The position numbers and the translations under genes are program-made. The notes under the pieces were generated by a model that saw only the letters and a program-made list of their open reading frames with translations, was not told the origin of the DNA and made no database searches. From assembly GCA_016213105.1 (NCBI GenBank), contig JACRBN010000026.1, forward strand, positions 806,001 to 870,000: a stretch of 64,000 nt of DNA. Direction: 5' to 3'. The stretch is from Chloroflexota bacterium (GTDB lineage: Bacteria; Chloroflexota; Anaerolineae; Anaerolineales; Villigracilaceae). Shown here one piece after another: positions 463-21,909 of this stretch. The stretch's first letter is position 1. Every line of letters starts with the position of its first letter.

Positions 463-489
463 AAAACTTCCATAATGAAGGACTGTCCG

Positions 490-1218
490 ATGAGCCAAAA
501 TATCGAAGCTATCTTTCTGGACGTGGGCAATACACTGCGGATCGTGGTCGAAGACCCGCAGTTTATGGCCCAGGCAAAAAAAGATTTGATGACCCTGGTG
601 GGAGCCACTGAGGCTGAGGATCAATTCTATGAGGATCTGGAGGTCAGGTGGAAGGCCTATCGCAGGCAGTCCAAGGGGACTTTGATCGAAGCTTCAGAAA
701 AGGATTTGTGGACAAAATGGCTGCTGCCCAATTATCCCGCCGAGGTCATTGGCCCGCTGGCGGGCAGGCTGACCCGCCTGTGGCGCGACCATGACGGGCG
801 ACGGGTTCCCCGTCCTGACGTCAAAGAGACAGTCATCGAATTGGACAAACGCGGTTATATCCTCGGCATCATCGCCAACACCATCACCGAGACGGAAATC
901 CCCGATTGGATGGAAGCGGATGGCCTGACGGACTATTTCAAGGCGGTGGTGCTTTCGTCCAAGGTTTTCATTCGCAAGCCCAACCCCGAGATCTATTGGG
1001 AAGCCGCCCGCCGCGTTGGGGTGGATCCCGCCAAATGCGCCTATGTGGGCGACAACCCCGTGCGCGACGTGGAGGGGACGCAGGCCGCCGGCTACGGAAA
1101 AATGATCCTGATCATGGAACCTGCCACGCTGGCGAAGGAACCTCCCACAGGCGAATATAAACCCGATCACACCATCCACACGATGAGCGACCTGCTCGCC
1201 ATTTTCCCTCCGCGCTAG
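490..1218 (+). CDS. HAD-superfamily hydrolase (first of three tandem paralogues)
   Basis: A 242-residue haloacid-dehalogenase-fold protein, probably a small-molecule phosphatase. Motif I is DVGNT near residue 11, with the nucleophile Asp followed two places on by Gly rather than Asp, as in E. coli YihX (glucose-1-phosphate phosphatase). The conserved Lys is in RKPNP, and motif IV is GDNPVRD. An alpha-helical cap lies between motifs I and II (residues about 20-100). An in-frame ATG exists at 475, but AAGGA at 478-482 sits correctly for 490 and both paralogues begin at the equivalent point. It heads a seven-gene operon behind the promoter at 411. It closely resembles the next two genes, which points to tandem duplication. 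The substrate is unknown. Confidence 0.9.
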   Translation: MSQNIEAIFLDVGNTLRIVVEDPQFMAQAKKDLMTLVGATEAEDQFYEDLEVRWKAYRRQSKGTLIEASEKDLWTKWLLPNYPAEVIGPLAGRLTRLWRDHDGRRVPRPDVKETVIELDKRGYILGIIANTITETEIPDWMEADGLTDYFKAVVLSSKVFIRKPNPEIYWEAARRVGVDPAKCAYVGDNPVRDVEGTQAAGYGKMILIMEPATLAKEPPTGEYKPDHTIHTMSDLLAIFPPR

Positions 1219-1236
1219 TCAAAAAGGAGGATGAAA

Positions 1237-1968
1237 ATGTCTCACAAAATTGAGGCAATCTTCATCGATACCGGCAATACCATGCGGATTGTCAAACAGG
1301 ATCAGACTTTTCAATATCAAGCCAAAGAGCAGCTTGTAAAACTGATCGGAGTTCAAAAATCCCCCGAGGCATTTTGCAGCGTTCTCAACGAGCGTTATGA
1401 AGCCTACAAAAAGTGGGCCAGGGAGACCCTGCTGCAGGCCTCCGAGGTGGAGTTGTGGACGCGCTGGATGCTGCCCGAATATCCAGTCTCGCAGATTTCG
1501 CCCCTGGTAACGGAACTGACCAACCTGTGGGTGAAGCAAAGCGGACGCCGCGTCATGCGCCCGGATGTGAAATCCACGATCATCGAACTGCATGAGCGCG
1601 GCTACACCCTGGGCATCATTGCCAATTCCCTGTCCCAGACGGAAATCCCGCAATGGCTGGAGGCTGAGGGACTAGCCCAATATTTCAAGGCGGTCATCCT
1701 CTCCTCCGAATTTGGACGCAGAAAACCCGATCCCTACATCTACATCGAAGCGGCCCGTGTTGCAGGCGTCGAGCCTGCGAAGTGTGCCTACGTGGGCGAC
1801 AATCCCAGCCGCGACATCGTCGGCGCGCGCCAGGCGGGCTATGGGATGGTCATCATCCTGCTCGAAAGGAAAACCCTGGCGAAGGAATCTCCCAGGGACA
1901 AGATCAAACCGGATGGGATCATCGGCCAGTTCTCCGACCTGCCGAATTTATTCTTCCCACTGAATTGA
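1237..1968 (+). CDS. HAD-superfamily hydrolase (second tandem paralogue)
   Basis: A 243-residue HAD-fold hydrolase with motif I DTGNT, conserved Lys in RRKPDP and motif IV GDNPSRD, so the catalytic and metal-binding set is intact. It shares long blocks with its neighbours on both sides, including the cap sequence around ELWTRWMLP. An upstream in-frame ATG at 1231 directly abuts the strong ribosome binding site AAAGGAGG (1223-1230), leaving no spacing, so the start at 1237 is preferred. It follows the first paralogue by 18 bp and is followed by the third after 8 bp, consistent with co-transcription. Predicted cytoplasmic, with no signal peptide. Confidence 0.9.
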   Translation: MSHKIEAIFIDTGNTMRIVKQDQTFQYQAKEQLVKLIGVQKSPEAFCSVLNERYEAYKKWARETLLQASEVELWTRWMLPEYPVSQISPLVTELTNLWVKQSGRRVMRPDVKSTIIELHERGYTLGIIANSLSQTEIPQWLEAEGLAQYFKAVILSSEFGRRKPDPYIYIEAARVAGVEPAKCAYVGDNPSRDIVGARQAGYGMVIILLERKTLAKESPRDKIKPDGIIGQFSDLPNLFFPLN

Positions 1969-1976
1969 GGGCAAAC

Positions 1977-2732
1977 ATGAAGCCGAATGATATCGAAGCC
2001 ATTTTTCTCGACCTGGGCAACACACTGCGGATTCTGCTCAAGGATGCAGATCACATGTCGCGGGCGCGGAAGATGATCACCGAACTGGTCGGGACGGACG
2101 AAGACCCCGACGCTTTTTTCGAGAAACTGAATGTCCGTTACAAGGTCTATCGCAAATGGGCTTTTGAAAACCTGGCCGAGGCCCCCGAAGCTGAATTGTG
2201 GACGCGCTGGCTCGTCCCTGATTTCCCTGTGGAAAAGATCGCGCCGCTGGGCGTGGAGCTGACCTACCAGTTCCGCCAGGGTATGGGGCGGCGCGTGGTT
2301 GTGGAGCATGGCAGGGAAGTGGTCGCCGAACTCCAACAGCGCGGATACGCGCTGGGCATCATCAGCAACCTGATCGGCTCGCGCGAGATTCCAGAATGGC
2401 TGGAGGCCGAGGGCTTTGCGCCTTACTTCAAGTCGGTCGTGCTTTCCTCCACCTTCGGGAAGAGAAAACCCGATCCGTCCATTTACTTCGAGGCGGCGCG
2501 CCTTGCTGGAGTCGATCCGTCCCGCTGCGCCTACGTGGGCGACAACCTCAAACGCGACGTGACCGGTTCCCGCCAGGCAGGTTTTGGCATGGTCGTGATC
2601 CTGATCTCGCCCGAGGATTTGGCGGAAGAAACGATCACAGACGAGAACCGCCCGGACATCATCATTCACAAATTCACAGACCTGCTGGATGTATTTCCAG
2701 TGCCCGAATTCCAGACTCTCAAGGCTTCTTGA
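1977..2732 (+). CDS. HAD-superfamily hydrolase (third tandem paralogue)
   Basis: A 251-residue HAD-fold hydrolase with motif I DLGNT (the same motif as YihX, DLGNV, apart from one residue), conserved Lys in KRKPDP and motif IV GDNLKRD. The frame is open far upstream, but the ATG at 1977 follows a GAGGG ribosome binding site and lines up with both paralogues. The C-terminus is slightly longer than in the other two. The gene lies between the second paralogue and the permuted phosphoglycerate mutase homologue. Three near-identical phosphatases in a row suggest either gene dosage or division of labour over related phosphate positions; that is inference. Confidence 0.9.
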   Translation: MKPNDIEAIFLDLGNTLRILLKDADHMSRARKMITELVGTDEDPDAFFEKLNVRYKVYRKWAFENLAEAPEAELWTRWLVPDFPVEKIAPLGVELTYQFRQGMGRRVVVEHGREVVAELQQRGYALGIISNLIGSREIPEWLEAEGFAPYFKSVVLSSTFGKRKPDPSIYFEAARLAGVDPSRCAYVGDNLKRDVTGSRQAGFGMVVILISPEDLAEETITDENRPDIIIHKFTDLLDVFPVPEFQTLKAS

Positions 2733-2765
2733 AACTTTCGGAGTCTCTCCCGTAAAGAGGCGACC

Positions 2766-4352
2766 ATGTTAACACGTCAATCCACGCGCGGCGCTGTGGC
2801 GCTGGGTGAAGCTGTCAGGGATTTATACGCAGAGGGGCAAACGGACTACTCGCTCGCCCCGATCGTGCTTGTGGATGATCAGGATGTACCGCTTGGCCGC
2901 ATCCAGGATGGCGACGCGGTCATCTTTTGCTGCCGCCGCGGGGAGCGTGAGATCCAATTGACGGAGGCATTCACCGCGCCTGGCTTCGACCGCTTTCCGC
3001 GCCCCCCATTCCATAATCTCAACTTTGTCATCCTGACGCTTTATCACGAAAAATTCAAAGACCTGCCGGTGGCCTTCGCGCCCTCCAGGGTTGGCGATAC
3101 GCTGGGAGAAGTCATCAGCCGCGCGGGTTTGAGTCAATTGCACACCGCTGAATCTGAAAAATTCGCGCATGTCACCTTCTTCCTCAACGGCGGGAACAAC
3201 CAGCCGTTCCAGGGTGAGGAGGATGTTCGCATTCCCTCCCCGAAGAATGTTCCCTTCGAGCAGGTTCCCGGGTTGAGTCTGCCCCAGGTCGCCGAACAGG
3301 TTGTGCTCGGCATCGAAAAGAAATATGATTTCATCGTGACCAACTTTGCCAACGGCGACGTCATCGGCCACACCGCGAACAACGAGGCCAAGGTCAGGTG
3401 CGCGAAAGCCGTGGATACCCATCTCGGCCAGGTCGTGGGTGCGGCCCTCGCGAACGATTACGTGGTGATGATCACCGCCGATCATGGTAATCTGGAAGAG
3501 ATGAACAATCCAGATGGGACGCCGCATGTTGCGCATACCACCAACCTGGTGAAGTTCGTTTTGATTGATCTCCGCTCCGCCTCGACCGTGAAACTGTGCG
3601 ATGGGAAACTGGCGGATGTGGCTCCGACGATTCTCTCCGCCCTGGGAGTGGATCAGCCTCCCGCCATGGACGGCGCCCCCCTCGCGTCTACTCACGACTG
3701 GGGCGGGCGGCGGCGGGTGCTGCTGGTCATCCTGGACGGGTGGGGCGTCGGCCGCGAGGATGACGGCAACCCGATCTTCCTCGCCGCGACTCCGCGTTGG
3801 GATGATCTGCTTTGCCGGTATCCCAATTCCCATTTGCAGGCCTGCGGCGACGCGGTCGGGCTGGGAGCTGGCAAGGCGGGAAATTCCGAGGCTGGGCACA
3901 TGAACATCGGTGCGGGCAGGGTCGTCCCTCAGGATGACGTGCGCCTCGACCAGGCCATGCAGGACGGCTCGTTTTACACGAATGAAATTTTCATCCACGC
4001 CATCGAGGATGTCAAACAACGCAAAACCAGCCTGCACCTGATCGGCCTGTTGACGGAAAAAAGTTCCCACGGCTCCATCGACTATCCGCTGGCCTTGCTG
4101 CGCATGGCCAGGGAACATGGCCTCGACCAGGTTTACCTCCACCTGATTTTGGATGGGCGCAGCACCGAACCCGGCAGCGCGCCCGCCCTGCTCGAAAAAT
4201 TGGAGACGCAAATCGAAGAGATCGGGCTTGGGCAGGTCGTCTCCGCCATTGGAAGAGGCATCGCGCTCGACCGCGGCGGCAATTATGGCAAGACCCAACG
4301 CGCCTTTGATGCATTTGTACATGGTGTCGGAAAAAAGAAAATCATGAACTAA
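2766..4352 (+). CDS. Circularly permuted 2,3-BPG-independent phosphoglycerate mutase homologue
   Basis: A 528-residue protein carrying the two halves of GpmI (alkaline-phosphatase superfamily) in reversed order. Residues 1-308 match the usual C-terminal half: Arg58/Arg61 region, EKFAHVTFF (Lys132), GDVIGH (Asp198, His202), ADHGN (Asp239, His240), His257, ending at the normal C-terminal MDGAPL. After a short linker the normal N-terminus follows: DGWG (Asp324), nucleophile Ser374 in GNSEAGH, His435, Arg465, Arg497, Arg503. Most residues that bind manganese or phosphate in GpmI are present, but the base after Arg465 is Ser466 where GpmI has Asp154, and the second His of GpmI's HSH is Ser437. The frame is uninterrupted and has its own ribosome binding site (AGAGG). 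It may be a mutase or phosphohydrolase on another phospho-compound. Confidence 0.9.
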   Translation: MLTRQSTRGAVALGEAVRDLYAEGQTDYSLAPIVLVDDQDVPLGRIQDGDAVIFCCRRGEREIQLTEAFTAPGFDRFPRPPFHNLNFVILTLYHEKFKDLPVAFAPSRVGDTLGEVISRAGLSQLHTAESEKFAHVTFFLNGGNNQPFQGEEDVRIPSPKNVPFEQVPGLSLPQVAEQVVLGIEKKYDFIVTNFANGDVIGHTANNEAKVRCAKAVDTHLGQVVGAALANDYVVMITADHGNLEEMNNPDGTPHVAHTTNLVKFVLIDLRSASTVKLCDGKLADVAPTILSALGVDQPPAMDGAPLASTHDWGGRRRVLLVILDGWGVGREDDGNPIFLAATPRWDDLLCRYPNSHLQACGDAVGLGAGKAGNSEAGHMNIGAGRVVPQDDVRLDQAMQDGSFYTNEIFIHAIEDVKQRKTSLHLIGLLTEKSSHGSIDYPLALLRMAREHGLDQVYLHLILDGRSTEPGSAPALLEKLETQIEEIGLGQVVSAIGRGIALDRGGNYGKTQRAFDAFVHGVGKKKIMN

Positions 4353-4364
4353 AGGAGGGGCCGC

Positions 4365-5570
4365 ATGGACGCGGAATTTCTAAAAAAACTGATCGCCCCG
4401 GCGCAGACGAAAATCGCGCTGGTCATCCTGGATGGGTTGGGCGGGCTGCCGATGGAACCGGGCGGCAAGACCGAGCTCGAGACGGCCTGCACCCCCAACC
4501 TGGACGCGCTGGCGGGCCGATCCGCCCTGGGGCTGACACAGCCGGCCGGGCCGGGTATCACCGTGGGCAGCGGCCCTGGTCATCTCGCCATCTTCGGGTA
4601 TGACCCGATCGAGAACGAAATTGGCCGTGGTGCGCTCGAAGCTCTCGGCGTGGATTTTGAACTCGGCCCCGAGGATGTCGCCGCGCGCGGCAACTTCTGT
4701 TCGGTGGACGCGGACGGGATCATTACCGACCGCCGCGCCGGGCGCATCCCAACGGAATTGGGCCGCGAGCTGGCGGAGTTGTTGAACACCATCCAGATCG
4801 ACGGCGTTGAATTCTTCGTCCGGCCGGTCAAGGAACATCGCTTCGCCTTCGTGATGCGCGGCGCTGGGTTAGGCGATGGCTTGAGCGAGACCGATCCGCA
4901 GAAGACCGGGGTCAAGCCCCTTCCCGTCTGCGCAACGGATCCAGGCTCCGAAAGGTCTGCGCAGTTTCTCAATCAATTCATCGAAAAGGCGCGCTGCCTC
5001 CTCGCGGAGAAACAACCCGCCAACATGATCATGCTGCGCGGCTTTGCCAAACTTCCGCGCATCCCCACCTATCCAGAGTTATATGGGCTGCATCCCGCGG
5101 CGGTCGCCATCAACGGCATGTATCGCGGCGTGGCGCGCCTGGCTGGAATGGAAGTTCTGCGCGTGGAAGGCGACACCATCGCCGACGAGTTTTCCATGCT
5201 CGAAAAACACTGGAACGATTTTGATTTCTTCTACCTGCACGTTAAGAAGACCGACACGTATGGCGAGGCGGGTGATTTCGCGGGCAAGGTGCGCGTGATC
5301 GAGGAAGTGGACTCGCTTAGTCCGCGCCTGATGGCGCTCGCCCCGGATGTGGTCATCGTGGGCGGCGATCACTCGTCGCCGGCGGTGCTCAAGTCGCACT
5401 CGTGGCATCCTGTCCCAGTCTTGTTGTACGCGAAGAACGTCCGCCCGGATGGGATCGCTGAATTCGGCGAACGCGCCTGCGCCCGCGGCAGTCTCGGCGT
5501 CCTGCCTGCCAAACACATCATACGGATCGCGCTGGCCAACTCGGGGCGCATCTCAAAGTATGGAGCTTAA
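4365..5570 (+). CDS. apgM: Archaeal-type 2,3-BPG-independent phosphoglycerate mutase (ApgM family)
   Basis: A 401-residue member of the ApgM branch of the alkaline-phosphatase superfamily, in the normal domain order and at the usual family length of about 400. Visible motifs are LVILDGLGGLP (metal-binding Asp), GSGPGHLAIFGYDP with the phosphoryl-accepting Ser, GRGALEALG, GGDHSSPA near the C-terminus, and SWHPVPVLLY with a metal-binding His. The family interconverts 3- and 2-phosphoglycerate through a phosphoserine enzyme. It starts 12 bp after the permuted GpmI-like gene with an AAAGGAGG site. Two different phosphoglycerate mutase-type enzymes side by side in a phosphatase operon is unusual, and here it may act on another phosphorylated acid or polyol. 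Confidence 0.9.
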   Translation: MDAEFLKKLIAPAQTKIALVILDGLGGLPMEPGGKTELETACTPNLDALAGRSALGLTQPAGPGITVGSGPGHLAIFGYDPIENEIGRGALEALGVDFELGPEDVAARGNFCSVDADGIITDRRAGRIPTELGRELAELLNTIQIDGVEFFVRPVKEHRFAFVMRGAGLGDGLSETDPQKTGVKPLPVCATDPGSERSAQFLNQFIEKARCLLAEKQPANMIMLRGFAKLPRIPTYPELYGLHPAAVAINGMYRGVARLAGMEVLRVEGDTIADEFSMLEKHWNDFDFFYLHVKKTDTYGEAGDFAGKVRVIEEVDSLSPRLMALAPDVVIVGGDHSSPAVLKSHSWHPVPVLLYAKNVRPDGIAEFGERACARGSLGVLPAKHIIRIALANSGRISKYGA

Positions 5571-5584
5571 CAAAGGAATTCTGC

Positions 5585-6775
5585 ATGTCAATCCATTTGA
5601 ACGATCCAGAAGTTTTTTCCGAGATTCTTTTTGAAAAGATGAAACAGATCAGCCCGGCCGTCGAAGACCTGGTGCTGTATGAATTCCGCTACGGACTCAA
5701 GAACCTGACGCCAGAGGCGGGCTGGGCGTCGGTGTCCGTCGAGAAAAAAGAAGTCGTCGAGCAGCGGGTCAACCTCCGCGCATTTTACGACGGCATCCAG
5801 ATCAAGCAGCGCGTCAACGATCACATCGTACTGGACGAAGAGATCGTCCGCCTGACGAATATGCTATTTGTCGGCCTCGTCACGGACGCGTATGATGTGG
5901 ACTGGGTCAATGCGCATTTCTACTTCGACGTGCGCGGTTTTTTCTTTTTGCATCGCACCCAATATTTTACCGAGGCAGTTCTGGCCCATTTGGGCGGGAA
6001 GCCGTTCAGGCAGTTCGAGCAAAAGCAGAAGGAATTTGTGCGCGTGCAGGATGTCGGGTACAAGGCCTTTCAGGAGGCGAACGCGGAGGTGGACGCCCTT
6101 TTCATCGAGAGCGTTCTCAAGCTCATCGCTGCGCGTGGAACCCCGCTTCTGCTGGCGATTGCCGGGCCGACTGCCGCCGGGAAGACCGAGATCGTGGAGC
6201 GCCTGCGCGAGGCCTTCGAGCGGGCCGGGCAAAAGACCACCTCGGTCGAGTTGGATAATTTCCTGACCGACCGCGATTACCGCGAGGAAAAGGGTATCTT
6301 CACGCAGGGGAAGGAAGCCCTCCACTTCAAGCTCTTCACGCAAAGCCTGAGGGACATTACGCAGGGAAGGAAAATTTCCATTCCGCGCTATGACTTCGTC
6401 TACGCCACGTCCAGCCACGATCTGGAAGGCAACCTGAAGCCCGAGGGCGTGCCCATCGAGATTGAACCCGCGGACATTATTTTCATCGAAGGCAACTTCC
6501 CATTTTTGATCGAGGAAGTCGTGGAGTTGATCGGCATCAAGGTGGTTTACCTCACCGATGACCCGATTCGCCTCAAGCGCAAGTGGAAACGGGACATCGA
6601 TTACCGCAAGAAATACGAGCCCACCTACTTCCGCAATCGATATTTCAAGGATCAATTCATCATGGCCGGGATCGCCTACCGTCCGCAAATGGAAGTATGC
6701 GACATGGTCGTGGACACGACCGGCGCGGCGCTGTGGACATCCCATGAAATCGCAAAAATCCTGACGGGCGATTGA
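5585..6775 (+). CDS. Uridine kinase/phosphoribulokinase-like P-loop kinase with N-terminal extension
   Basis: A 396-residue protein. The C-terminal half (residues about 188-390) is a P-loop kinase of the uridine kinase/phosphoribulokinase/pantothenate kinase group: Walker A GPTAAGKT at 194-201, a substrate-site LDNFLTDRDY region, an IPRYDF segment and an IIFIEGNFPF Walker-B-like strand. The first 180 residues are a separate acidic domain without a motif I recognise. The enzyme presumably phosphorylates a small hydroxylated substrate using ATP. It sits 14 bp after apgM and before the MFS gene. A kinase among phosphatases suggests that part of the imported compound is re-phosphorylated at another position to enter metabolism; this is inferred. 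Confidence 0.8.
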   Translation: MSIHLNDPEVFSEILFEKMKQISPAVEDLVLYEFRYGLKNLTPEAGWASVSVEKKEVVEQRVNLRAFYDGIQIKQRVNDHIVLDEEIVRLTNMLFVGLVTDAYDVDWVNAHFYFDVRGFFFLHRTQYFTEAVLAHLGGKPFRQFEQKQKEFVRVQDVGYKAFQEANAEVDALFIESVLKLIAARGTPLLLAIAGPTAAGKTEIVERLREAFERAGQKTTSVELDNFLTDRDYREEKGIFTQGKEALHFKLFTQSLRDITQGRKISIPRYDFVYATSSHDLEGNLKPEGVPIEIEPADIIFIEGNFPFLIEEVVELIGIKVVYLTDDPIRLKRKWKRDIDYRKKYEPTYFRNRYFKDQFIMAGIAYRPQMEVCDMVVDTTGAALWTSHEIAKILTGD

Positions 6776-6807: not shown

Positions 6808-8040
6808 ATGGTGATGCCTCCTGCTTTCAAGTCCAGGCGGTTTGTCATGTACTGGATCGGACACCTGGTTTCATTTGCCGGTTCACAGATGCAATTGTGG
6901 GCCATGTACTGGCACCTGCGCGCGCTATCGGATCAGCCGATGGTCATCAGCGGAATTGGGCTGGTGCGCTTCCTGCCGGTGATCCTCCTTTCGTTGATCG
7001 CCGGCGTGGCCGCAGACCGTTTTGACCGACGCAAGTTGACGATCCTCACCCAGGCCGCCCTGGGGCTGGTCGCCCTCGTCCTTGGCCTGGAGACCGCCCT
7101 GGGCGCCATGTCGCTGTGGATGTTGTTCAGCCTGGTGGCCGTCCAATCCATTGCGGTGGCGTTCGACGTGCCGGCGCGGCAGGCCCTGATCCCATCCCTG
7201 GTTCCGCGCGAAGACCTGGCCAGCGCCTACAGCCTGACCTCCATCGCATCGAAAGTGGGCGGCATTCTGGGGCCCGGCATCTCGGGCATCGTGATCGCAT
7301 TCTGGGGATTGCAGTGGGCCTATTGGATTAACGCAATATCCTACCTGGCCGTGATCCTGGCGTTGGCGGCCATGGGACACGTCCAGACTGTTGCAGAACA
7401 GAAGCCGTTCAGTCTTCAAAAAACATTCACCGACATTCACGAGGGGATCGAGTTCATCAAAAACTCCCCGGTCATCTTTTCAGCCATGATCCTGGATTTC
7501 TTTGGGTCTTTCTTCTCTTCGGCGAATACCCTGCTGCCCTTCGTGGCGACGGATATTTTGCACGTCGGCCCGATCCAGTATGGCTGGCTGTCTGCTTCGC
7601 AATCCATCGGCACACTGATCGTCGGGGTCTATCTCTCGCAGAAAACCAAACTTCTTCGCCAGGGATTGTTGATTTCCGTATCGGTGGTGATGTTTGGCCT
7701 GGCGACGATTCTGTTCGGGGTATCCACCTCGTTTTGGCTGACGATGCTGGCGCTCATCTTGATCGGCGTCTTCGACGGATTGAGCACGATCATCCGCAAC
7801 ACGGTCAGACAGTTGTTGACGCCAGACGAAATGCGCGGCCGCATGATGAGCATCACCCAGATATTTTTCAAGGGCGGCCCGCAGCTCGGGGAAATGGAAT
7901 CTGGTTTCGTGGCGCAGTTGCTGGGCGTCCCGTTTGCGATCATCTCGGGTGGGGTGGGGTGCGTGCTGGCGGCCTTCGTCGTGCTCAAAAAATTCCCGCA
8001 GCTTTGGACATTCAACGGAGACGAAGCGCCGGTGAAGTAG
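6808..8040 (+). CDS. MFS transporter
   Basis: A 410-residue integral membrane protein with about 12 hydrophobic segments. The loop between segments 2 and 3 carries the major facilitator motif (AGVAADRFDRRK), and the style is that of the MFS_3/enterobactin-exporter-like group. It closes the operon opened at 490, 32 bp after the kinase. The ribosome binding site is weak, and a start two codons later (6814) is possible. In this setting it could export a dephosphorylated product or exchange substrates; the sequence does not decide this. The RpiR promoter lies 58 bp downstream. Confidence 0.85.
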   Translation: MVMPPAFKSRRFVMYWIGHLVSFAGSQMQLWAMYWHLRALSDQPMVISGIGLVRFLPVILLSLIAGVAADRFDRRKLTILTQAALGLVALVLGLETALGAMSLWMLFSLVAVQSIAVAFDVPARQALIPSLVPREDLASAYSLTSIASKVGGILGPGISGIVIAFWGLQWAYWINAISYLAVILALAAMGHVQTVAEQKPFSLQKTFTDIHEGIEFIKNSPVIFSAMILDFFGSFFSSANTLLPFVATDILHVGPIQYGWLSASQSIGTLIVGVYLSQKTKLLRQGLLISVSVVMFGLATILFGVSTSFWLTMLALILIGVFDGLSTIIRNTVRQLLTPDEMRGRMMSITQIFFKGGPQLGEMESGFVAQLLGVPFAIISGGVGCVLAAFVVLKKFPQLWTFNGDEAPVK

Positions 8041-8206: not shown

Positions 8207-9088
8207 ATGAGCGCAGACGAGACTCGCAGTAATCTTGATTTTAGCCAGATCATTAGTGAGCGCTACGGCCAGTTGACCAAAAGCGAAAAGCAAATTGCGG
8301 ACTATCTGCGTAAAAACCAGGAAGAATCCGCTTTTCTTTCTGCGGGGGAACTGGCAGATCACCTGGGGCTGAGTGAAGCCACCCTGGTGCGCTTCGCCCG
8401 TTCCCTGGGGTTCGATAGTTATCCCGCCATGCGCGAGGTCTTGCAGGAAAATTTCCGCCGCCGCGTCACCCACTCGACGAGATTGCGCAGCCGCCTGGAC
8501 GAACTGCGGGAGTCGGGCGATATTTTCGAGCGGCTGGTCGCCTCCGAGATCGACTACATGACCCAATCCCTGGAGTCGGTGAATCGGGAGGCCCTGCACC
8601 AGGCCGTCGATCTCATGAAGAATCGCAAGCGGATTTTTATCTTCGGGGTCGGCCCATCGGTTTCCCTGGTCGAATTGATGAAGATCCGCCTCGAACGCTT
8701 TGGCCGACAGGTGATCCCGTTGACGACGGCCGGGCGCGAATTCCTCGAACCCCTGATCTCCATGACGGAGAACAATCTTTTATTCGTGATCTGCTTTTTC
8801 GATGTAACCCCGGCCTTGCAGCTGGTGCTCGATTACGCGCGTGATGTGAACTGCCCGGTCATCATGCTGACCGATACGCTGGGTTCCATCATCGGGGACA
8901 GGGCCGACGTGGTTCTATCCGCCAAGCGCGGCCCGGTCTCGGGCTTCCACTCACTGGTGGTGCCCATGACCATCATCAATTCCATTTTGCTGGCGATGGC
9001 CAGCGAGGAGGGTGGCGTGATGGAAAACCTGGACAAGCTCGATCAGTTGCGGGAGCGCCTGAAAAAGTATAACGGCTCATCCACCTGA
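8207..9088 (+). CDS. RpiR-family (MurR/RpiR) transcriptional regulator
   Basis: A 293-residue regulator with an N-terminal HTH_6 domain (residues about 10-85, including LTKSEKQIADYLRKNQEE and LSEATLVRFARSLGF) and a C-terminal SIS phosphosugar-binding domain (about 125-260, with RIFIFGVGPS). The SIS domain of this family senses phosphorylated sugars. The ribosome binding site GAAAGG precedes ATG 8207. The gene lies between the HAD operon and the ABC importer, and its own promoter carries the same operator as the HAD operon. This is the main argument that the cluster handles a phosphorylated sugar-like compound. Confidence 0.92.
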   Translation: MSADETRSNLDFSQIISERYGQLTKSEKQIADYLRKNQEESAFLSAGELADHLGLSEATLVRFARSLGFDSYPAMREVLQENFRRRVTHSTRLRSRLDELRESGDIFERLVASEIDYMTQSLESVNREALHQAVDLMKNRKRIFIFGVGPSVSLVELMKIRLERFGRQVIPLTTAGREFLEPLISMTENNLLFVICFFDVTPALQLVLDYARDVNCPVIMLTDTLGSIIGDRADVVLSAKRGPVSGFHSLVVPMTIINSILLAMASEEGGVMENLDKLDQLRERLKKYNGSST

Positions 9089-9195: not shown

Positions 9196-11034
9196 ATGGC
9201 AAGCCTTGAAGCATCCACGGGGGAAACCTTCGTCTCACGCCTGCCCGCGAAAGCGAGGAGGTTTTTGCGATGGGTGACAACCCCGCAGGTTGTCCTGTCC
9301 CTGTTCATGCTGTTCCTGATGTTCTACATGGTGATCATCCCGCTCTACCGCATGTTGGTTACCACCATCACCTTCTCGGAAAATGACCTGCGTTATGCCC
9401 AGGATGCCGTGATCGGGCAGTTGACCCCCTTCCATTGGCTGAGAATGCTGTCCAGCAAGATCAGCATGATCATGACCTATGAGCCCCTGCTGCATTCGCT
9501 GACCATCTCGATGGGCGCCACCCTGCTCTCGTTCACCATCGGCGGGGCCATGGCCTGGATGGTTGTCCGCACCGATATGCCGGGCAGGAACATCATCAAC
9601 GTCCTGGCCACCGTGCCGTACATCATGCCCTCCTGGACGATTGCCATGGCGTGGAAGGTGCTGTTCAACAACGGCACGACAGGCGGCACGCCCGGAATTC
9701 TTATGTACCTGACCGGAACGCCGCCACCGGATTGGATCTCGTACGGCCCGCTGCCGATCATCATCAGCAGCGCGCTGCATTACTACACGTTCTTCTTCCT
9801 GTTCGTCTCGGCGGCGTTGATGTCCATCGACTCGAGCCTGGAGGAGGCGGGGGAACTGGCAGGCGCCAGCCGCGCGCGCATCCTGAGCAAGATCACCTTC
9901 CCGCTGGTCGTCCCGGCCCTGATGTCCGGTTTCATCATGACGTTCTCGAAGACCATGGGCACCTTCGGCGGCCCGAACGTGCTGGGCGTGCCGGTGCGCT
10001 ACTATACGCTCTCCACCATGATCCGCTCCAATACCACGATCAGCGCCTTCGGGGATGCGTTCGTGCTGGCCATCGTCCTGATCCTCTTCTCCATGACGAC
10101 CATATTCATCAACCAGAAAATCGTCGGCACCCGCAAGAGTTATGAAACCATCGGCGGGCGCGGATTCATGGCCCAGAAAACCAAACTGCGCAACTGGAAG
10201 GGCCTCCTGACCACTTTGGTGATCATCTTCCAGGTGTTGATCGCCGTCCTGCCGCTGATCCTCCTGATCTGGAGCACCTTGATGCTGCGGTCGGGCGATT
10301 ACAGCATCGGCAACATGGGTCTGGCGCATTGGATCGGCGAAAGCGACGTGAGCATCAACAGCGGTGAACCGGGCGTGCTGCGCAACCCCGCCATCTATAA
10401 AGGCGCCTGGAACTCGATCAAACTGTCCCTCTACACCGCCTTCTTTACCGCCCTGCTGGGAGTCGTCCTTGGCTATGCCATCGTGAAGGGAAGGGGCACC
10501 CGCCTGTCCAAGTTCGTGGAGCAGTTGGCCTTCATCCCCTACGTCATCCCGGGCATCGCCTTTGGCGCGGTTTATATTTCCATGTTCACGAAATCGGTCG
10601 GCCCGATCCCGCCGCTGTATGGCACCTTCGCCCTGCTGGTGGTGGTTTCGGTGGCCAAGCATATCCCGTATTCCTCCCGCAGCGGCGTTTCGGCCATGCT
10701 CCAGGTGGGGCGGGAGCTGGAAGAGGCGGCTGCGGTCGCGGGCGCCAATGCCTGGCAGCGTTTCACGCGCATCATCTTCCCGCTGACCAGCACCGGCTTC
10801 GTCTCCGGCTTCCTGCTGACCTTCATCACCACCATGCGGGAACTGTCCCTGATCATCCTGCTGGTGACTCCCACCACGGCGGTGCTGGCCAGCATGACCA
10901 TGCGCTACATCGAGAACGGCAACGAACAGCAGGCCAATGCGGTCATCATCATCCTGATCGTGCTGGTTTTGATCGGCAACTTCATCATCAGCCGTTTCCG
11001 CGGCGGCAGTCTTAAAAAAGGTCTTGGAATGTAA
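9196..11034 (+). CDS. ABC transporter permease, two fused permease units (FbpB/AfuB type)
   Basis: A 612-residue inner-membrane protein with about 12 transmembrane segments arranged as two homologous halves. Each half has the cytoplasmic EAA loop that contacts the ATPase: EEAGELAGASRARILSKI in the first half and EEAAAVAGANAWQRFTRI in the second. Fused permeases of this kind serve ferric iron (FbpB), thiamine and, in AfuB, hexose-phosphate import. A ribosome binding site AGGAG precedes ATG 9196. It is followed after 12 bp by the ATPase. The neighbouring phosphatases, RpiR and phosphate carrier favour a phosphorylated organic substrate over iron. Confidence 0.92.
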   Translation: MASLEASTGETFVSRLPAKARRFLRWVTTPQVVLSLFMLFLMFYMVIIPLYRMLVTTITFSENDLRYAQDAVIGQLTPFHWLRMLSSKISMIMTYEPLLHSLTISMGATLLSFTIGGAMAWMVVRTDMPGRNIINVLATVPYIMPSWTIAMAWKVLFNNGTTGGTPGILMYLTGTPPPDWISYGPLPIIISSALHYYTFFFLFVSAALMSIDSSLEEAGELAGASRARILSKITFPLVVPALMSGFIMTFSKTMGTFGGPNVLGVPVRYYTLSTMIRSNTTISAFGDAFVLAIVLILFSMTTIFINQKIVGTRKSYETIGGRGFMAQKTKLRNWKGLLTTLVIIFQVLIAVLPLILLIWSTLMLRSGDYSIGNMGLAHWIGESDVSINSGEPGVLRNPAIYKGAWNSIKLSLYTAFFTALLGVVLGYAIVKGRGTRLSKFVEQLAFIPYVIPGIAFGAVYISMFTKSVGPIPPLYGTFALLVVVSVAKHIPYSSRSGVSAMLQVGRELEEAAAVAGANAWQRFTRIIFPLTSTGFVSGFLLTFITTMRELSLIILLVTPTTAVLASMTMRYIENGNEQQANAVIIILIVLVLIGNFIISRFRGGSLKKGLGM

Positions 11035-11046
11035 GGAGAAGCACAA

Positions 11047-12135
11047 ATGTCAACCACCATTACCATAAAAAATCTCACCAAACGTTTCGGCGACGTGGCC
11101 GCGGTCAACAATGTCAGCCTGACCATCGAACCGGGCACATTCCTGACCCTGTTGGGACCTTCCGGTTGCGGCAAGACGACCCTGCTGCGCTGCATCGCCG
11201 GCCTGGAGGACCCGAACGAAGGCGAAATTTACGTCGGCGACAAACTGGTTTTTTCCAGCAAAAAGGGCATTTCCCTGCCCGCGGGCCAGCGCGACCTGGG
11301 ACTCGTTTTTCAAAACTATGCCTTGTGGCCGCACATGACGGTCTACAAGAACATTACCTTTGCGCTCGAGATCCAGAAAATGTCCAAGGACCAGATGGAC
11401 AGGCGCGTCAAGGAAGTGCTGGCCGAGGTGCAGATGGAAGGCTACGCGGACCGCTATCCGCGTGAGATGAGCGGCGGACAGCAGCAGCGCATTGCCCTGG
11501 CGCGCATGCTGGCCTACCGCCCCAAGGTCTTCCTGATGGATGAGCCGCTCTCCAATCTGGACGCCCGCCTGCGCATGGACATGCGCACGGAACTCAAGCG
11601 CCTCCATCATATTTCCGGCGCGACCACCATCTACGTCACGCACGACCAGGTGGAAGCCCTGACCATGTCGACCAATATCGCGGTGATGAAGCTGGGCGTC
11701 ATTCAACAACTGGACACCCCGGACAAGGTCTATCATTTCCCGGCGAATTTGTTCATCGCGGATTTCATCGGCAACCCGAAGGTCAACCTGCTGGACGGCA
11801 GTGTGAACGGGAACGGCAGCATCAGCCTGGGGTCGTTCTCGGTGCCCGTCGCCACCTACGGGGCCAGCGGGGAGGTGGTCCTGGCGGTGCGTCCCGAGGA
11901 TATCGCCGTCGCGACCAAACCGATGGAGGGCGGGGTCGAATTCAGCGCCTACTCCGTCCTGCCCTCCGGCGCCGATTCGACCATCGTTGCGCGCAGGGAA
12001 GAGATGGAGATCACGGTCAAGGTCATGGGCATCAGCACGATCAAGATGGACGAGAAAATCTGGCTGAAGTTCGATTCGGAAACGCTCAATCTATACGACA
12101 AGGAAAGTGGAAACCTGGTGGTTTCCCTTAACTAA
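11047..12135 (+). CDS. ABC transporter ATP-binding protein (FbpC/AfuC type)
   Basis: A 362-residue ATPase with Walker A GPSGCGKTT (about residues 38-46), Q-loop in VFQNYALWPHM, signature MSGGQQQRIALARML, Walker B VFLMDEPLSNLD, and the switch His in YVTHDQVEA. The C-terminal third (from about residue 245) is a TOBE-like domain with VRPEDIAV, as in the CUT1/FbpC/PotA group. It powers the permease encoded just upstream, from which it is separated by 12 bp with an AAGGAG site. The solute-binding lipoprotein follows after about 125 bp, completing an importer. Confidence 0.93.
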   Translation: MSTTITIKNLTKRFGDVAAVNNVSLTIEPGTFLTLLGPSGCGKTTLLRCIAGLEDPNEGEIYVGDKLVFSSKKGISLPAGQRDLGLVFQNYALWPHMTVYKNITFALEIQKMSKDQMDRRVKEVLAEVQMEGYADRYPREMSGGQQQRIALARMLAYRPKVFLMDEPLSNLDARLRMDMRTELKRLHHISGATTIYVTHDQVEALTMSTNIAVMKLGVIQQLDTPDKVYHFPANLFIADFIGNPKVNLLDGSVNGNGSISLGSFSVPVATYGASGEVVLAVRPEDIAVATKPMEGGVEFSAYSVLPSGADSTIVARREEMEITVKVMGISTIKMDEKIWLKFDSETLNLYDKESGNLVVSLN

Positions 12136-12261
12136 AGGCCTTTTCATTGCATCCTGTCCACATTTCGGAGGCACCGGAAGGAGGAAGCAGGGAACAAGTC
12201 ACTTGTGAACGAAAACGAGTCAGTTCGTATATTGTTTCAACCATCAAGAAGGAGAATTGAA

Positions 12262-13503
12262 ATGAAAGTGTTTGGTAAAATTTTGACCTTTGTATTGCTG
12301 ATCAGTTTCCTGGTCGGCTGCGCGGCGCCTGTCGCAACCAAAGCTCCGTCCGTCGATGTTCCCGCCACCGATGCCCCGGTGATTGATGTCCCTGCAACGG
12401 ATGCCCCGCTGTCTGCACAGGAGCAATGGCTGATGGACAATCAGCTCGGCCAGTACGACACCGGCGAGCAGGATTGGGATGCCATCGAAGCTGCCGCGAA
12501 ACTTGAGGGCTCGGTGATCGTGTATGCCAACTCCTCCAAGGTTGCAAAAGCGGCTGAAATCTGGGCCGAGAAGTACCCGGATATTGCACTGGAAGCCTAT
12601 GATCTTGGCGGCGACGACGTGCTGTCCAAGGTCATGGGAGAGCAGCAGGCCGGTTTGTTCGTCGGGGATGTATGGTTCAGCAGCGGCGGCGCCGAACTCG
12701 TTGGGAATGTGATCCCTCACAAGTATGTCTGGCGCTTTGTTCCCAGCGACCTTTCCGCACTCGTTCCGCCGGAATATACCCAGCCGTTGCTCATGTCCCG
12801 CTTTGGGACCACCATCCTGGCCTACAACTCCGAATTGAACGATGCCTGCCCGGTCAGCAATCTGTGGGAACTGACCCAGCCGGAGTGGAAGGGCAAGATC
12901 TTCATCGAGGATCCGTTGAATGACGCCTCCACCCTGAGCAAGCTGCTCACTATTGCCTACCATGCCGACGAAATGAAGGCCGCCTACGTCGCCCTGAACG
13001 GCTCCGATCCCGTTCTGGATGACGACACTGCGGATGCCGGCTGGCTGTGGCTCAAGCGCTTCGCCCAGAACGCCCCCGTGCCCCAACCGGGCGGCGATGA
13101 AGTCGACTCCGCTTTTGCCACCCCCGGCATGACCGAGAGCTACCTGGCCTTCACGTCCTACTCGAACTATCCTGATGTGCAGGATGGCAACCTGGTCTTC
13201 GAACCCTGCTGGGGTGTCGCGCCTGTTACCGGCGTGCAGAGCCAGAGCTATTTGGGCATCATCAATCAAGCCCCGCACCCCAATGCCGCCAAGCTGTTCA
13301 TGCGTTTCATCACCAGCGAGGAAGGCCGCGATCCCTGGGCGAAATTCGGCACGTACTTTGCCGATACCACCTACGAAGTCCCGGATGGCCAGAAAACCCT
13401 GGCCGAGATCCAGGAAGTCACCTGGTTCATCGCTGAGCAGTACGCCTACGATAACCTCGTCCAGGCGCGCGACTTCTACCTGTTGAATCTGGGCCAGCCC
13501 TAA
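12262..13503 (+). CDS. ABC transporter solute-binding lipoprotein (AfuA/FbpA-like)
   Basis: A 413-residue exported binding protein. It starts at ATG 12262 behind AAGGAG, has a lipoprotein signal peptide (lipobox LVGC, Cys about residue 20), a Pro/Thr/Asp-rich tether with a repeated DVPATDAP unit, then a family-1 extracellular solute-binding fold from about residue 60 (GSVIVYANSSK, DVWFSSGGAEL, VSNLWELTQPEWKGKI). This domain style is shared by iron, phosphonate and sugar-phosphate binders (FbpA, PhnS, AfuA). An upstream in-frame start at 12205 would bury the signal peptide and is rejected. It gives the importer its specificity; the ligand is unknown but phosphorylated compounds fit the cluster. 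Confidence 0.9.
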   Translation: MKVFGKILTFVLLISFLVGCAAPVATKAPSVDVPATDAPVIDVPATDAPLSAQEQWLMDNQLGQYDTGEQDWDAIEAAAKLEGSVIVYANSSKVAKAAEIWAEKYPDIALEAYDLGGDDVLSKVMGEQQAGLFVGDVWFSSGGAELVGNVIPHKYVWRFVPSDLSALVPPEYTQPLLMSRFGTTILAYNSELNDACPVSNLWELTQPEWKGKIFIEDPLNDASTLSKLLTIAYHADEMKAAYVALNGSDPVLDDDTADAGWLWLKRFAQNAPVPQPGGDEVDSAFATPGMTESYLAFTSYSNYPDVQDGNLVFEPCWGVAPVTGVQSQSYLGIINQAPHPNAAKLFMRFITSEEGRDPWAKFGTYFADTTYEVPDGQKTLAEIQEVTWFIAEQYAYDNLVQARDFYLLNLGQP

Positions 13504-13674: not shown

Positions 13675-15105
13675 ATGGGTATGAAAATTCAGGCAGTGAT
13701 TTTTGACATGGGCGGCACGATCGAGACTTTTGGGTATACCCGTGAGCTCCGGCTGGAGGCCACCGCCGTCATCCAGCAGCGCCTGTTGCAGGCCGGGATC
13801 GACCTGCATTTAAGTACCGAACAACTTTTCGAAATCATCTCCAGCGGACTGGATCGATACAAACGCTGGAGCATCGCGAGCATGGATGAACTGCATCCCC
13901 TGCGCGTCTGGTCGAAATACGTTTTCGCCGGGCGGGATGTGGATGTGGACAAATTGGCGGCCGTCGCCGAGGACCTGGCGTTTTTGATCGAGACCCGTTT
14001 CTATCAACGCGCCATGCGGCCCGAGATGCCCGCCGTCCTGGAAGCCATCCAACAAATGGGCCTGAAGATCGGGCTCATCAGCAATGTCAACAGCCGTGGG
14101 CAGGTGCCCGCGAATTTGAAAGCGTACGGCATTTACCAGTACTTCGACCCGATCGTTTTATCCAGCGAGTACGGCCGCCGCAAACCCGACCCGGCCATCT
14201 TTCACCATGCGGCGCGGCTGGCCGATGTCCCTGCCAGCGCCTGTTTGTACGTTGGCGACCGCGTCGTCCGCGATGTGGACGGCGCCCAGTGCGCCGGGTA
14301 CGGCATGTCGGTTCAGATTCGGCATGATTTCGAGCACGGTGAAAACGATCAGGGCGCCACGCCCGACGCGGTCATCTGCAATATGACCGAACTGCTCGAC
14401 CTTCTGCGCGCCAACCTTGATTGCGAACAGACTCCGGCCGTGCCGGGCCAAATCCGCGCCCTGATCTTTGACGCAGGAGACATCCTCTATTACCGCCCCG
14501 AGCGGGGAGTCAAATTCGCCGCATTTCTCAAGGAACAGGGCCTGGAAGTCAGCCCGACCCATACCCAGCAGAAAAAGGCCATCGAATACAAGGCCTATCG
14601 CGGAGAGATCGACCACGACGAATACCGTGAGGCCATCGTGCAAATGTACGGCATCAACCAGCCTGAACTGGTGGCGCGCGGCAAACAAGCCCTGATCGAC
14701 GACGATGCCAACGTCGCGTTTTTCGAGGGCGTGCCCGAAACCCTGCTTGCCTTGAAGGCGCAGGGCTATATGCTGGGCATCGTGACCGATACGGCCAATT
14801 CGATTTCCGCCAAGTTGAGCTGGTTCGAGCGCGGCGGATTCGGCCGCGTCTGGGATTCGATCATCTCGTCGATGGACATCGGCACCCGCAAACCCGATCC
14901 CAAAATCTACCAGGCCGCCCTGCGGCAATTGGGCTTGACTCCCGACCAGGCCGTTTTCGTGGGGCACCGCGCCTCCGAGCTGGCGGGCGCGCGCGCGGTC
15001 GGCATGCAGACCATCGCCTTCAATTACGACCCGGATGCCAGCGCGGATTTTTACATCGAAAACTTCGCAGACCTTTTGAAGGTGCCTGTCGTTGGCCAGG
15101 GCTGA
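13675..15105 (+). CDS. Tandem two-domain HAD-superfamily hydrolase
   Basis: A 476-residue protein made of two HAD domains joined near residue 250. The first (1-245) has motif I DMGGT, Lys in RRKPDP and motif IV GDRVVRD, and looks active. The second (about 260-476) has motif I DAGDI, Lys in TRKPDP, but motif IV reads GHRASE, so the first metal-binding Asp is replaced by His; this domain may be inactive or regulatory. ATG 13675 follows AAGG. The protein is related to the phosphatases at 490-2732. It starts a second transcription stretch continuing through the phosphate carrier. A fused, partly degenerate pair is a likely duplication product. Confidence 0.88.
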   Translation: MGMKIQAVIFDMGGTIETFGYTRELRLEATAVIQQRLLQAGIDLHLSTEQLFEIISSGLDRYKRWSIASMDELHPLRVWSKYVFAGRDVDVDKLAAVAEDLAFLIETRFYQRAMRPEMPAVLEAIQQMGLKIGLISNVNSRGQVPANLKAYGIYQYFDPIVLSSEYGRRKPDPAIFHHAARLADVPASACLYVGDRVVRDVDGAQCAGYGMSVQIRHDFEHGENDQGATPDAVICNMTELLDLLRANLDCEQTPAVPGQIRALIFDAGDILYYRPERGVKFAAFLKEQGLEVSPTHTQQKKAIEYKAYRGEIDHDEYREAIVQMYGINQPELVARGKQALIDDDANVAFFEGVPETLLALKAQGYMLGIVTDTANSISAKLSWFERGGFGRVWDSIISSMDIGTRKPDPKIYQAALRQLGLTPDQAVFVGHRASELAGARAVGMQTIAFNYDPDASADFYIENFADLLKVPVVGQG

Positions 15106-16848: not shown

Positions 16849-17469
16849 ATGCGCGCCCTTTTTGTGAAACGCCAGAACGTCTTTATCAAACTGATCCACG
16901 ATCAGGCTTCCCTTACGCTCGATGGCCTGGAGGCGCTGAAGACGTATTTTGAAACTCACGACCCGGCTGCGGCGAAAGTGCTGACGGCCAAGGAAAAGGA
17001 AGCCGACGAAGCCCGCCGCATCCTGATCGACGAGTTGAACCGCACCTTCGTGACGCCCTTCGACCGCGAGGACATCTTTGCGCTCTCGCGCGCCATCGAC
17101 GACGTGATCGACTACGCCTACAGCACCGTCAACGAGATGGAAGTTTTTGATGTGAAGGCCACCCCGTTTATGCAGCGCATCGCCTCCCTGCTGCGTGACG
17201 CCGCCTACGAACTGCTCCAGGCCGTCGACCGGCTGGAACAGCATCCCAACGTGGCCGGTGACCATGCCCAGCGCGCCAAGGCGCTCGAAAACCGCGTGGA
17301 GGATGTCTATCGCGAGGCGCTGGCCGAACTGTTCAAAGGCGCCGCGGATCTCGAACACGTCATCCTGATCCTGAAACTGCGCGAGGTCTACCGCCACCTG
17401 AGCAACGCCGCCGACCGCGGCGATGAAGCCGCCAACGTCATCGCTGACATTGTCGTCAAGATAGCCTGA
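16849..17469 (+). CDS. DUF47/PhoU-like phosphate transport regulator
   Basis: A 206-residue, highly helical protein of the DUF47 (TIGR00153) family, distantly related to PhoU. Recognisable segments are the N-terminal basic VKRQNVFIKLIHDQA, the acidic FVTPFDREDIFALSRAIDDV that is hallmark of the family, and the central helix DRGDEAANVIADI near the end. Such proteins are encoded next to PiT phosphate carriers and are thought to modulate them. Here the PiT gene follows after 13 bp. A GGAAGGA ribosome binding site precedes ATG 16849. Its presence fits phosphate release by the many phosphatases in this cluster. Confidence 0.92.
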   Translation: MRALFVKRQNVFIKLIHDQASLTLDGLEALKTYFETHDPAAAKVLTAKEKEADEARRILIDELNRTFVTPFDREDIFALSRAIDDVIDYAYSTVNEMEVFDVKATPFMQRIASLLRDAAYELLQAVDRLEQHPNVAGDHAQRAKALENRVEDVYREALAELFKGAADLEHVILILKLREVYRHLSNAADRGDEAANVIADIVVKIA

Positions 17470-17482
17470 ACGGGCGGCCTGC

Positions 17483-21827: not shown

Positions 21828-21880
21828 GGCGACCCGCCTAGTGTAGCATGGAGTGGGGCTCAAACGGCTTAATTCCATAC

Positions 21881-21909
21881 TTGCACTCACAGGGCGAATG
21901 TGATAGCCT
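21881..21909 (+). promoter_or_regulatory. Candidate promoter of the two-component operon
   Basis: TTGCAC (21881-21886), a 17-bp spacer and TAGCCT (21904-21909) lie about 130 bp before the histidine kinase start in the divergent intergenic gap. The -10 box is a poor match to consensus, so confidence is moderate to low. Confidence 0.35.

Follow-up and report, generated by a model that had tools for sequence, protein, structure and literature searches.

A naturally permuted homologue of the phosphoglycerate mutase GpmI with an altered active site and an inferred change of specificity

The gene reported here stands closest to the phosphoglycerate mutase GpmI (iPGM), the chain of which opens with the start of the phosphatase domain, runs through an inserted phosphotransferase part, and closes with the end of the phosphatase domain. 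In iPGM, the phosphoryl group is transferred through a phosphoserine, the motif around this nucleophile usually has the form GNSEVGH, and Asp154 is positioned at the glycerate hydroxyls (all active-site positions are given in the numbering of 1ejj); on the role of this aspartate we found nothing useful in the open-licence literature. The substrate residues, which we take to be H123, R153, D154, R185, R191, R261, R264, and K336, were checked together with the nucleophile and a metal centre made up of D12, D403, H407, D444, H445, and H462. The latter list agrees with the residues given for Caenorhabditis elegans in PMC5382265. A further system bears on the gene clusters described below: cyclic 2,3-diphosphoglycerate (cDPG) is reported from hyperthermophilic methanogens (PMC10690619), and the archaeal synthetase uses 2,3-diphosphoglycerate (PMC12136491).

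Within the whole stretch of DNA analysed (64,000 nt, hereafter the window), we found a GpmI homologue that does not meet this domain order (Table 1). The gene proved to be a single unbroken frame of 528 codons plus a stop, with zero internal stops, and every GpmI motif quoted in the preliminary description was recovered from its translation. That description had also placed the C-terminal half of GpmI first, and the matches to 1ejj, to the equivalog model TIGR01307, and to Pfam all returned the swapped order. Specifically, codons 15 to 306 cover the end of the phosphotransferase part and most of the phosphatase domain, and codons 315 to 522 cover the start of the phosphatase domain, with the nucleophile, and the first stretch of the phosphotransferase part. 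TIGR01307 was matched in two stretches with 483 bits (cut-off 330.65), the better of which placed residues 12–306 of the query on positions 212–503 of the 504-position profile, and Pfam placed Metalloenzyme at 105–296 (profile 64–251) ahead of iPGM_N at 395–524. The cut-off of another iPGM model, NF003897, was not reached (383 against 862), nor was that of the ApgM model TIGR00306, which matched only locally (29.9 bits against 320). The linker between the native ends was present, at about eight residues where about ten had been estimated, and the new ends map between 1ejj residues 210 and 218, a gap which, by the domain limits that we presume, lies inside the phosphotransferase part as had been proposed. 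A lack of homology between the halves and GpmI would have refuted the description and can be set aside, given the i-Evalues of both 1ejj matches. Sequence comparison therefore supports the reading of this protein as a circular permutation of GpmI.

The permuted gene stands in a tight row on the plus strand: the HAD gene before it stops at 2732, its own ATG at 2766 follows an A/G-rich stretch that resembles a ribosome-binding site, and the ApgM gene begins 13 bases past the permuted-gene stop. A scan for promoters and terminators gave no dependable signal. No duplicated half that might be a trace of the origin of the permutation was present in 1900–5600. The best short repeat pair in this region, 26 nt at 92% identity (3722–3747 and 4418–4443), sits in an LVILDG-G motif common to the permuted gene and the adjoining ApgM gene, and could reflect either shared motif ancestry or local exchange.

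Table 1. Genes and features of the permuted-gene cluster in the window.
Feature	Position	Strand	Basis
HAD-family gene, motif I DxGxT	475..1218	+	ORF and alignment
HAD-family gene, motif I DxGxT	1231..1968	+	ORF and alignment
HAD-family gene directly upstream, motif I DxGxT	1977..2732	+	TIGR02253-like, below cut-off
Circularly permuted iPGM (GpmI) homologue	2766..4352	+	528 aa; ORF and Pfam, NCBIfam, and 1ejj matches
Codons 15–306 = iPGM residues 218–508	2808..3683	+	1ejj alignment, i-Evalue 1.8e-62
Linker over native C- and N-termini	3684..3707	+	Codons 307–314; gap between 1ejj matches, and alignment rows
Codons 315–522 = iPGM residues 3–210	3708..4331	+	1ejj alignment, i-Evalue 1.7e-49
Ser374, equivalent of the phosphoserine nucleophile Ser62	3885..3887	+	Alignment; invariant 58/58
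Ser466, replacing iPGM Asp154	4161..4163	+	Alignment; LDGRD to LDGRS
ApgM-type phosphoglycerate mutase homologue	4365..5570	+	PRK04135, 548 bits, cut-off 468
P-loop kinase of the PRK/uridine kinase/PanK/glycerate 3-kinase class, N-terminal extension	5585..6775	+	Profiles and model
MFS transporter	6808..8040	+	Weak association: its cluster has 3 genes in 3 loci
MurR/RpiR-type regulator	8207..9088	+	Profile match
ABC permease, two permease units fused	9196..11034	+	PhnU2-like, below cut-off
ABC ATPase	11047..12135	+	UgpC/PhnT2-like, below cut-off
ABC substrate-binding protein	12205..13503	+	SBP_bac_8
Two HAD units in one frame	13675..15105	+	ORF and alignment
HAD unit fused to xylose-isomerase-like TIM barrel	15160..16830	+	Profile match

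An AlphaFold model built with 21 permuted sequences had a mean pLDDT of 88.4 and a pTM of 0.80. VIA-align superposed model residues 9–308 on 212–510 of 1ejj, 1o98, and 1o99 (Z 20.3–20.4, 291–292 residues, 3.5 Å), its best match being 4nwj, with Z 20.7 over 282 residues at 6.0 Å, again within the first ~300 model residues, and all 22 Foldseek matches at E ≤ 0.001 were iPGM chains. Both aligners being sequential, these results speak for the first half only, and closure of the fold in the permuted protein is inferred.

The preliminary description had called for a database search for the permuted order, and we recovered it, aligned, in 58 distinct genes, the two closest pairs of which were 97% and 95% identical. 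A scan of contigs gave 24 loci with a relative, from Chloroflexota (Anaerolineales, Levilinea, Longilinea, Flexilinea, and others) and Clostridia, all of them collinear with the permuted query; 23 matched over at least 500 residues and one (L051) over 24–433. The complete chromosome of [Clostridium] asparagiforme carries two permuted copies alongside one normal-order gpmI. Misassembly, named at the outset as something that would overturn the finding, is ruled out because 58 distinct genes, two of them in a complete chromosome, have the same order; for an assembly or cloning artefact more generally we found no supporting evidence, and the number of assemblies involved, together with residues and a linker specific to the family, leaves it virtually no chance.

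The spread of the permuted form was patchy. Collinear matches were found in six of 100 genomes of the host family, two of them partial, and none was found in G014, a genome of the same genus, in this search; normal-order gpmI was present in 3/100 of the same sample. The permuted gene occurred in 23 of 296 genomes of the host class, in at least two of 400 of the host phylum (among the top matches listed by E value, a figure that could miss partial permuted genes), and in at least 12 of 398 of the phylum of [Clostridium] asparagiforme at E ≤ 1e-85. The last count is a lower bound, since one genome, G559, was missed at this threshold and was added through its neighbourhood, giving 13. On plasmids, 44 records matched, and the best 15 of these 44 were all two-piece matches, 10 of them annotated as gpmI.

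In a tree of de-permuted sequences, 37 permuted and 34 normal-order rows were split by a branch supported at 100/98. These 71 rows comprised 37 of 40 permuted genes (three partial ones dropped), 31 native sequences from Chloroflexota, and three of 12 from the other phylum. A second tree, with Clade 4 (see below), separated 28 permuted from 26 normal-order rows at 100/99; it held 28 of the 58 permuted genes, 16 of the 31 Chloroflexota native sequences, and 10 of the 12 from the other phylum, L119 and L120 being excluded. Because the root is unknown, a single origin here means only that nothing in the trees calls for two, and the sequences thus appear to require no more than one. The permutation seems to have become fixed a single time before spreading across two phyla.

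The permuted genes formed four groups, which we refer to as Clades 1 to 4. Clade 1 is the group of the window gene and includes named records in both Chloroflexota and Clostridia, Clade 2 is its sister group, marked by a cDPG synthetase operon, and Clade 3 has four loci, near three of which lies a RapZ-type gene (Pfam match on one). Clade 4 comprises genes from 14 of the 296 class genomes and from G119.

The preliminary description held that nearly all ligands of GpmI are kept, and this was right, with a single exception. Positions 12, 62, 261, 264, 336, 403, 407, 444, 445, and 462, which include the nucleophile serine and all six metal-centre residues, were invariant in all 58 permuted genes, as were 123, 153, 185, and 191 in the rows that reach them, the gaps falling in the partial genes L005, L051, and L095. 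Seven of the eight substrate residues were therefore kept and 14 active-site positions were invariant where readable. The exception, Asp154, was absent from all 55 readable permuted genes, being serine in 40/40 of Clades 1–3 and glycine in 15/15 of Clade 4; all 41 normal-order rows keep it within DGRD (31 from Chloroflexota and 10 from the phylum of [Clostridium] asparagiforme). Further residues differed as well, and the analysis included a wider comparison of 40 permuted with 31 native rows. The GGV that precedes His123 was replaced by xSS (GGVH to xSSH) in 56/56 readable permuted rows, and in Clades 1–3 the Asn-Phe before Arg261 had become Cys-Arg in 43/43 genes (Phe260 to Arg), with lysine or arginine at position 120 in 39 of 42 readable rows and glycine in the other three. 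Clade 4 had neither the Cys-Arg nor the basic residue at 120.

Several families of genes accompany the permuted gene, counted here within 11 kb of it on contigs many of which are short. The 31 rows of Clade 1 represent 30 distinct genes, since L002 and L031 are the same gene, and their neighbours included HAD proteins (26), ApgM (17), the kinase (17), an ABC ATPase (14), an ABC permease (13), a binding protein (11), and RpiR (10); one of the ATPases, on the other strand and 9 kb away in L097, is probably unrelated. In Clade 2 (eight loci), we found a permease in eight (on the opposite strand in L105), an ATPase in eight, a binding protein in seven, cDPG synthetase in six, and GntR in five, in the operon order GntR, cDPG synthetase, binding protein, permease, ATPase, permuted gene. 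The closest PDB entries to the Clade 2 binding protein were 4r72 and a pyridoxal-phosphate binder; 4r72 is AfuA of a sugar-phosphate importer (PMC4546632). One of the asparagiforme permuted copies runs divergently from RpiR and from the tripartite carboxylate importer TctC/TctB/TctA. No cluster genes were found in the four Clade 3 and 15 Clade 4 loci, except for ABC ATPase matches in two of Clade 4. A histidine phosphatase-type gene adjoins the permuted gene in four Clade 4 loci (Pfam match on one). Besides lacking a HAD/ABC cluster, the Clade 4 genes (L136–L149 and L055) share the motif LGRRGER, LGRRGEH, or LGRRGEK; their role may differ and could be a housekeeping one.

The second aspartate of HAD motif I is the acid/base residue of the usual phosphatases. 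In the window, motif I read DxGxT, not DxDxT, at 475–2732, 13675–14400, and 15160–15903, in all eight aligned rows. Across 25 loci, 45 of 59 HAD frames could be parsed, and all 45 had glycine at the position of the second aspartate; among the 14 others, eight showed glycine by eye and six had no motif I in the printed stretch. Going by these sequences, the HAD proteins of the cluster may not be ordinary phosphatases. The model of the neighbouring kinase (5585–6772, pLDDT 85.2) matched pantothenate kinase (Z 14.6), YGR205w (Z 12.1), glycerate 3-kinase (Z 11.4), and uridine-cytidine kinase 2 (Z 11.3), four kinases that do not discriminate, so a substrate could not be assigned from structure. Approximately 180 residues precede its P-loop domain, and no family match was found for this N-terminal part. 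Directly after the cluster (16849–18469) follow a DUF47 (PhoU_div) gene and a PiT-like phosphate transporter, named by eye, and a glycerate 2-kinase-like gene lies nearby on the minus strand (20496–21890; 203.5 bits, below the cut-off of 550).

The cDPG synthetase homologues of Clade 2, exemplified by those at L099:3863–5203, L100:3915–5252, and L133:9041–10381, matched 8ork, 8oru, and 9sxb with E values of about 1e-133, over ~437 aligned residues, and about 1e-127; the one that was scanned had no Pfam or NCBIfam match. Among the 398 genomes of the asparagiforme phylum, seven encoded the synthetase and all seven had the permuted gene. In five, the permuted gene starts 5.2–5.3 kb downstream of the synthetase, and in a sixth (G559) it is in the same operon. 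The seventh, G749, has its operon divided between the ends of two contigs, with GntR, synthetase, and binding protein on one and permease, ATPase, and permuted gene on the other. The association (7/7 versus 6/391) gave a Fisher p of 5.8e-12, or 1.2e-9 without G559, ignoring the relatedness of the genomes. The class of G531 adds no new test, because the three of its 17 genomes that have the synthetase are already among the seven. We did not find the synthetase in the other six of the 13 genomes in this sample that carry the permuted gene, namely one of Clade 1 (G104), G704, which belongs to Clade 2 and has its permuted gene on a short contig, and four of Clade 3. Nor was it found, at E 1e-5 and with no positive control, in 13 Clade 1 genomes, including the host, and one of Clade 4; the same query does find the seven among 398 in the other sample. 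A link to cDPG for the window itself was therefore not upheld, within the limits of that search.

Other phosphoglycerate mutases were present in the genomes that carry the permuted gene. The host genome encodes a GpmA (TIGR01258) on a contig away from the permuted gene (C18), and its only ApgM match at E ≤ 1e-20 is the gene that adjoins the permuted one. Because of this GpmA on another contig, the permuted gene is unlikely to be the housekeeping phosphoglycerate mutase of the host. Of GpmA and ApgM, only GpmA was found in G014, and over 14 genomes (G014 and 13 with the permuted gene), ApgM was present in 13 and GpmA in eight; all 13 permuted-bearing genomes had either GpmA or an ApgM on a different contig from the permuted gene. 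Native gpmI was found beside the permuted form in 12 of 24 genomes searched (4/12 and 8/12) and not in the other 12. In L121, L122, and L125, the normal-order gpmI of permuted-bearing genomes has the nucleophile motif GGSEVGH or GDSNVGH.

We propose that the protein is a naturally permuted iPGM paralogue with altered specificity, acting on a phosphorylated small acid, a reading that we hold to be probable, short of confident, with activity and substrate both inferred. It would fold like iPGM, with the phosphoserine at Ser374, the two-metal centre, and the same arginines and lysine, and since the phosphoserine and two-metal machinery is intact, it is natural to infer that phosphoryl groups are transferred through Ser374. 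The acceptor or substrate would differ from 3- and 2-phosphoglycerate, as the lost Asp154 and rebuilt substrate loops suggest, and the same loss, together with the gene neighbourhood, suggests that the protein is not merely a phosphoglycerate mutase whose ends have moved. In the window group, the ABC transporter would import a phosphorylated small molecule, for which we have inference only, and the HAD proteins, the P-loop kinase, and ApgM would then process it. The permuted enzyme would most likely either pass a phosphoryl group to a phosphorylated small acid chemically close to bisphosphoglycerate or act on it as a phosphatase. Such an acid is the common denominator of the linked genes, which include transporters related to a sugar-phosphate importer and to aminoethylphosphonate models, in one case a carboxylate importer, and the cDPG synthetase homologue, which would use 2,3-diphosphoglycerate if it works as the archaeal enzyme does. 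The permuted protein probably does a new job; against altered specificity stand the half of the 24 genomes that lack a detected native gpmI, the permuted-bearing genomes in which no synthetase was found, and Clades 3 and 4, which lack the cluster.

The missing native gpmI and the cluster-free Clade 4 would suit an ordinary phosphoglycerate mutase that interconverts 2-PG and 3-PG and simply tolerates both the permutation and the change at Asp154: its Clade 4 genes could stand without a cluster as a housekeeping gene does, the missing native gpmI would be accounted for, and the TIGR01307 score above cut-off and the retention of metal ligands, nucleophile, and arginines would be expected. We consider this quite unlikely, since the loss of Asp154 in every readable permuted gene and the remodelled loop argue against standard isomerisation, and neither the GpmA or ApgM elsewhere in all 13 genomes checked, nor the patchy distribution in family, genus, and class, nor the ties to transporter clusters in two groups favours it. 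An enzyme of 2,3-bisphosphoglycerate (2,3-BPG) or cDPG metabolism, for instance one that places phosphate on 2,3-BPG used or made by the synthetase, or removes it, overlaps with the altered specificity that we propose and is unlikely while remaining a serious possibility. The Clade 2 operon ends in the permuted gene, which accompanies the synthetase in 7/7 genomes, and the loss of the aspartate together with Arg57 (43/43) and a lysine or arginine at 432 (39/42) in Clades 1–3, both numbered on the permuted protein, would suit a more anionic ligand; however, the synthetase was found neither in the 13 Clade 1 genomes and the one of Clade 4 nor in sampled Clade 3, and both the pocket location of the new basic residues and the activity of the synthetase homologue are only presumed.

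Use of phosphonates is a further candidate, in which the importer would take up a compound like 2-aminoethylphosphonate and the alkaline phosphatase-fold (AP-fold) and HAD proteins would act on C–P compounds. Phosphonatases have a small residue at the motif I position where phosphatases have aspartate, as the DxGxT proteins do. The ABC parts also resemble the PhnS2, PhnT2, and PhnU2 models, the GntR gene of Clade 2 has similarity to HutC and PhnF, and ApgM scores 177 bits to the phosphonate-pathway model PhpG. This last score is below its cut-off of 545, the Phn-type scores likewise fall short of theirs, none of the matches listed for the cluster proteins scanned (two of the five window HAD genes among them) was to a phosphonatase, PhnW, or PhnA model, and the nearest solved binding protein is AfuA, so we view phosphonate use as very unlikely. 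A bolder version of altered specificity, which we find speculative and rather unlikely, would make the permuted subfamily a new enzyme class of bacterial bisphosphoglycerate or cyclic diphosphoglycerate metabolism. Through permutation, the loss of Asp154, and the gain of basic pocket residues, a mutase would have become a phosphotransferase or phosphatase acting on a more highly charged ligand, its partners being an importer and a synthetase that is characterised from archaeal methanogens.

The preliminary description knew of no permuted form of this enzyme, and we likewise found no such title in the open-licence literature on phosphoglycerate mutase and the alkaline phosphatase superfamily, a search of titles only that left most subscription journals out of scope; we regard the genes as a permuted, diverged subfamily of iPGM. 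As a natural permutation of a textbook glycolytic enzyme, it offers a ready-made test of how permutation and functional change are connected. Because TIGR01307 calls the permuted protein GpmI, databases may well be crediting it with mutase activity on phosphoglycerate that it need not possess. The linked clusters, for their part, suggest that imported organic phosphates are handled by a route not yet characterised, and those of Clade 2 indicate a cyclic diphosphoglycerate synthetase in bacteria.

Set against described systems, the permuted protein is homologous to GpmI/iPGM (TIGR01307; 1ejj, 1o98, 5vpu) along the length of both halves and shares with it the nucleophile serine, the six residues of the metal centre, and all but one of the eight substrate residues checked; it differs from it in the swapped halves, the new ends in the phosphotransferase part, the linker over the native ends, the replacement of Asp154 by serine or glycine, and the loop change from GGVH to xSSH; moreover, in the genomes checked it occurs beside ordinary phosphoglycerate mutases, often in importer clusters. 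With ApgM (TIGR00306/PRK04135), it has in common the Pfam Metalloenzyme core and the phosphoglycerate mutase family, whereas ApgM is not permuted, has a different insert (PF10143), and is met by the permuted protein only through a local TIGR00306 match. The linked transporter genes belong to the same binding-protein and permease families as the AfuABC and PhnSTUV-type importers, but their NCBIfam scores are below the curated cut-offs. Finally, the Clade 2 partner gene is homologous over ~437 residues to the archaeal cDPG synthetase (8ork, 9sxb), in contrast to which it is found in the phylum of [Clostridium] asparagiforme and in an importer operon.
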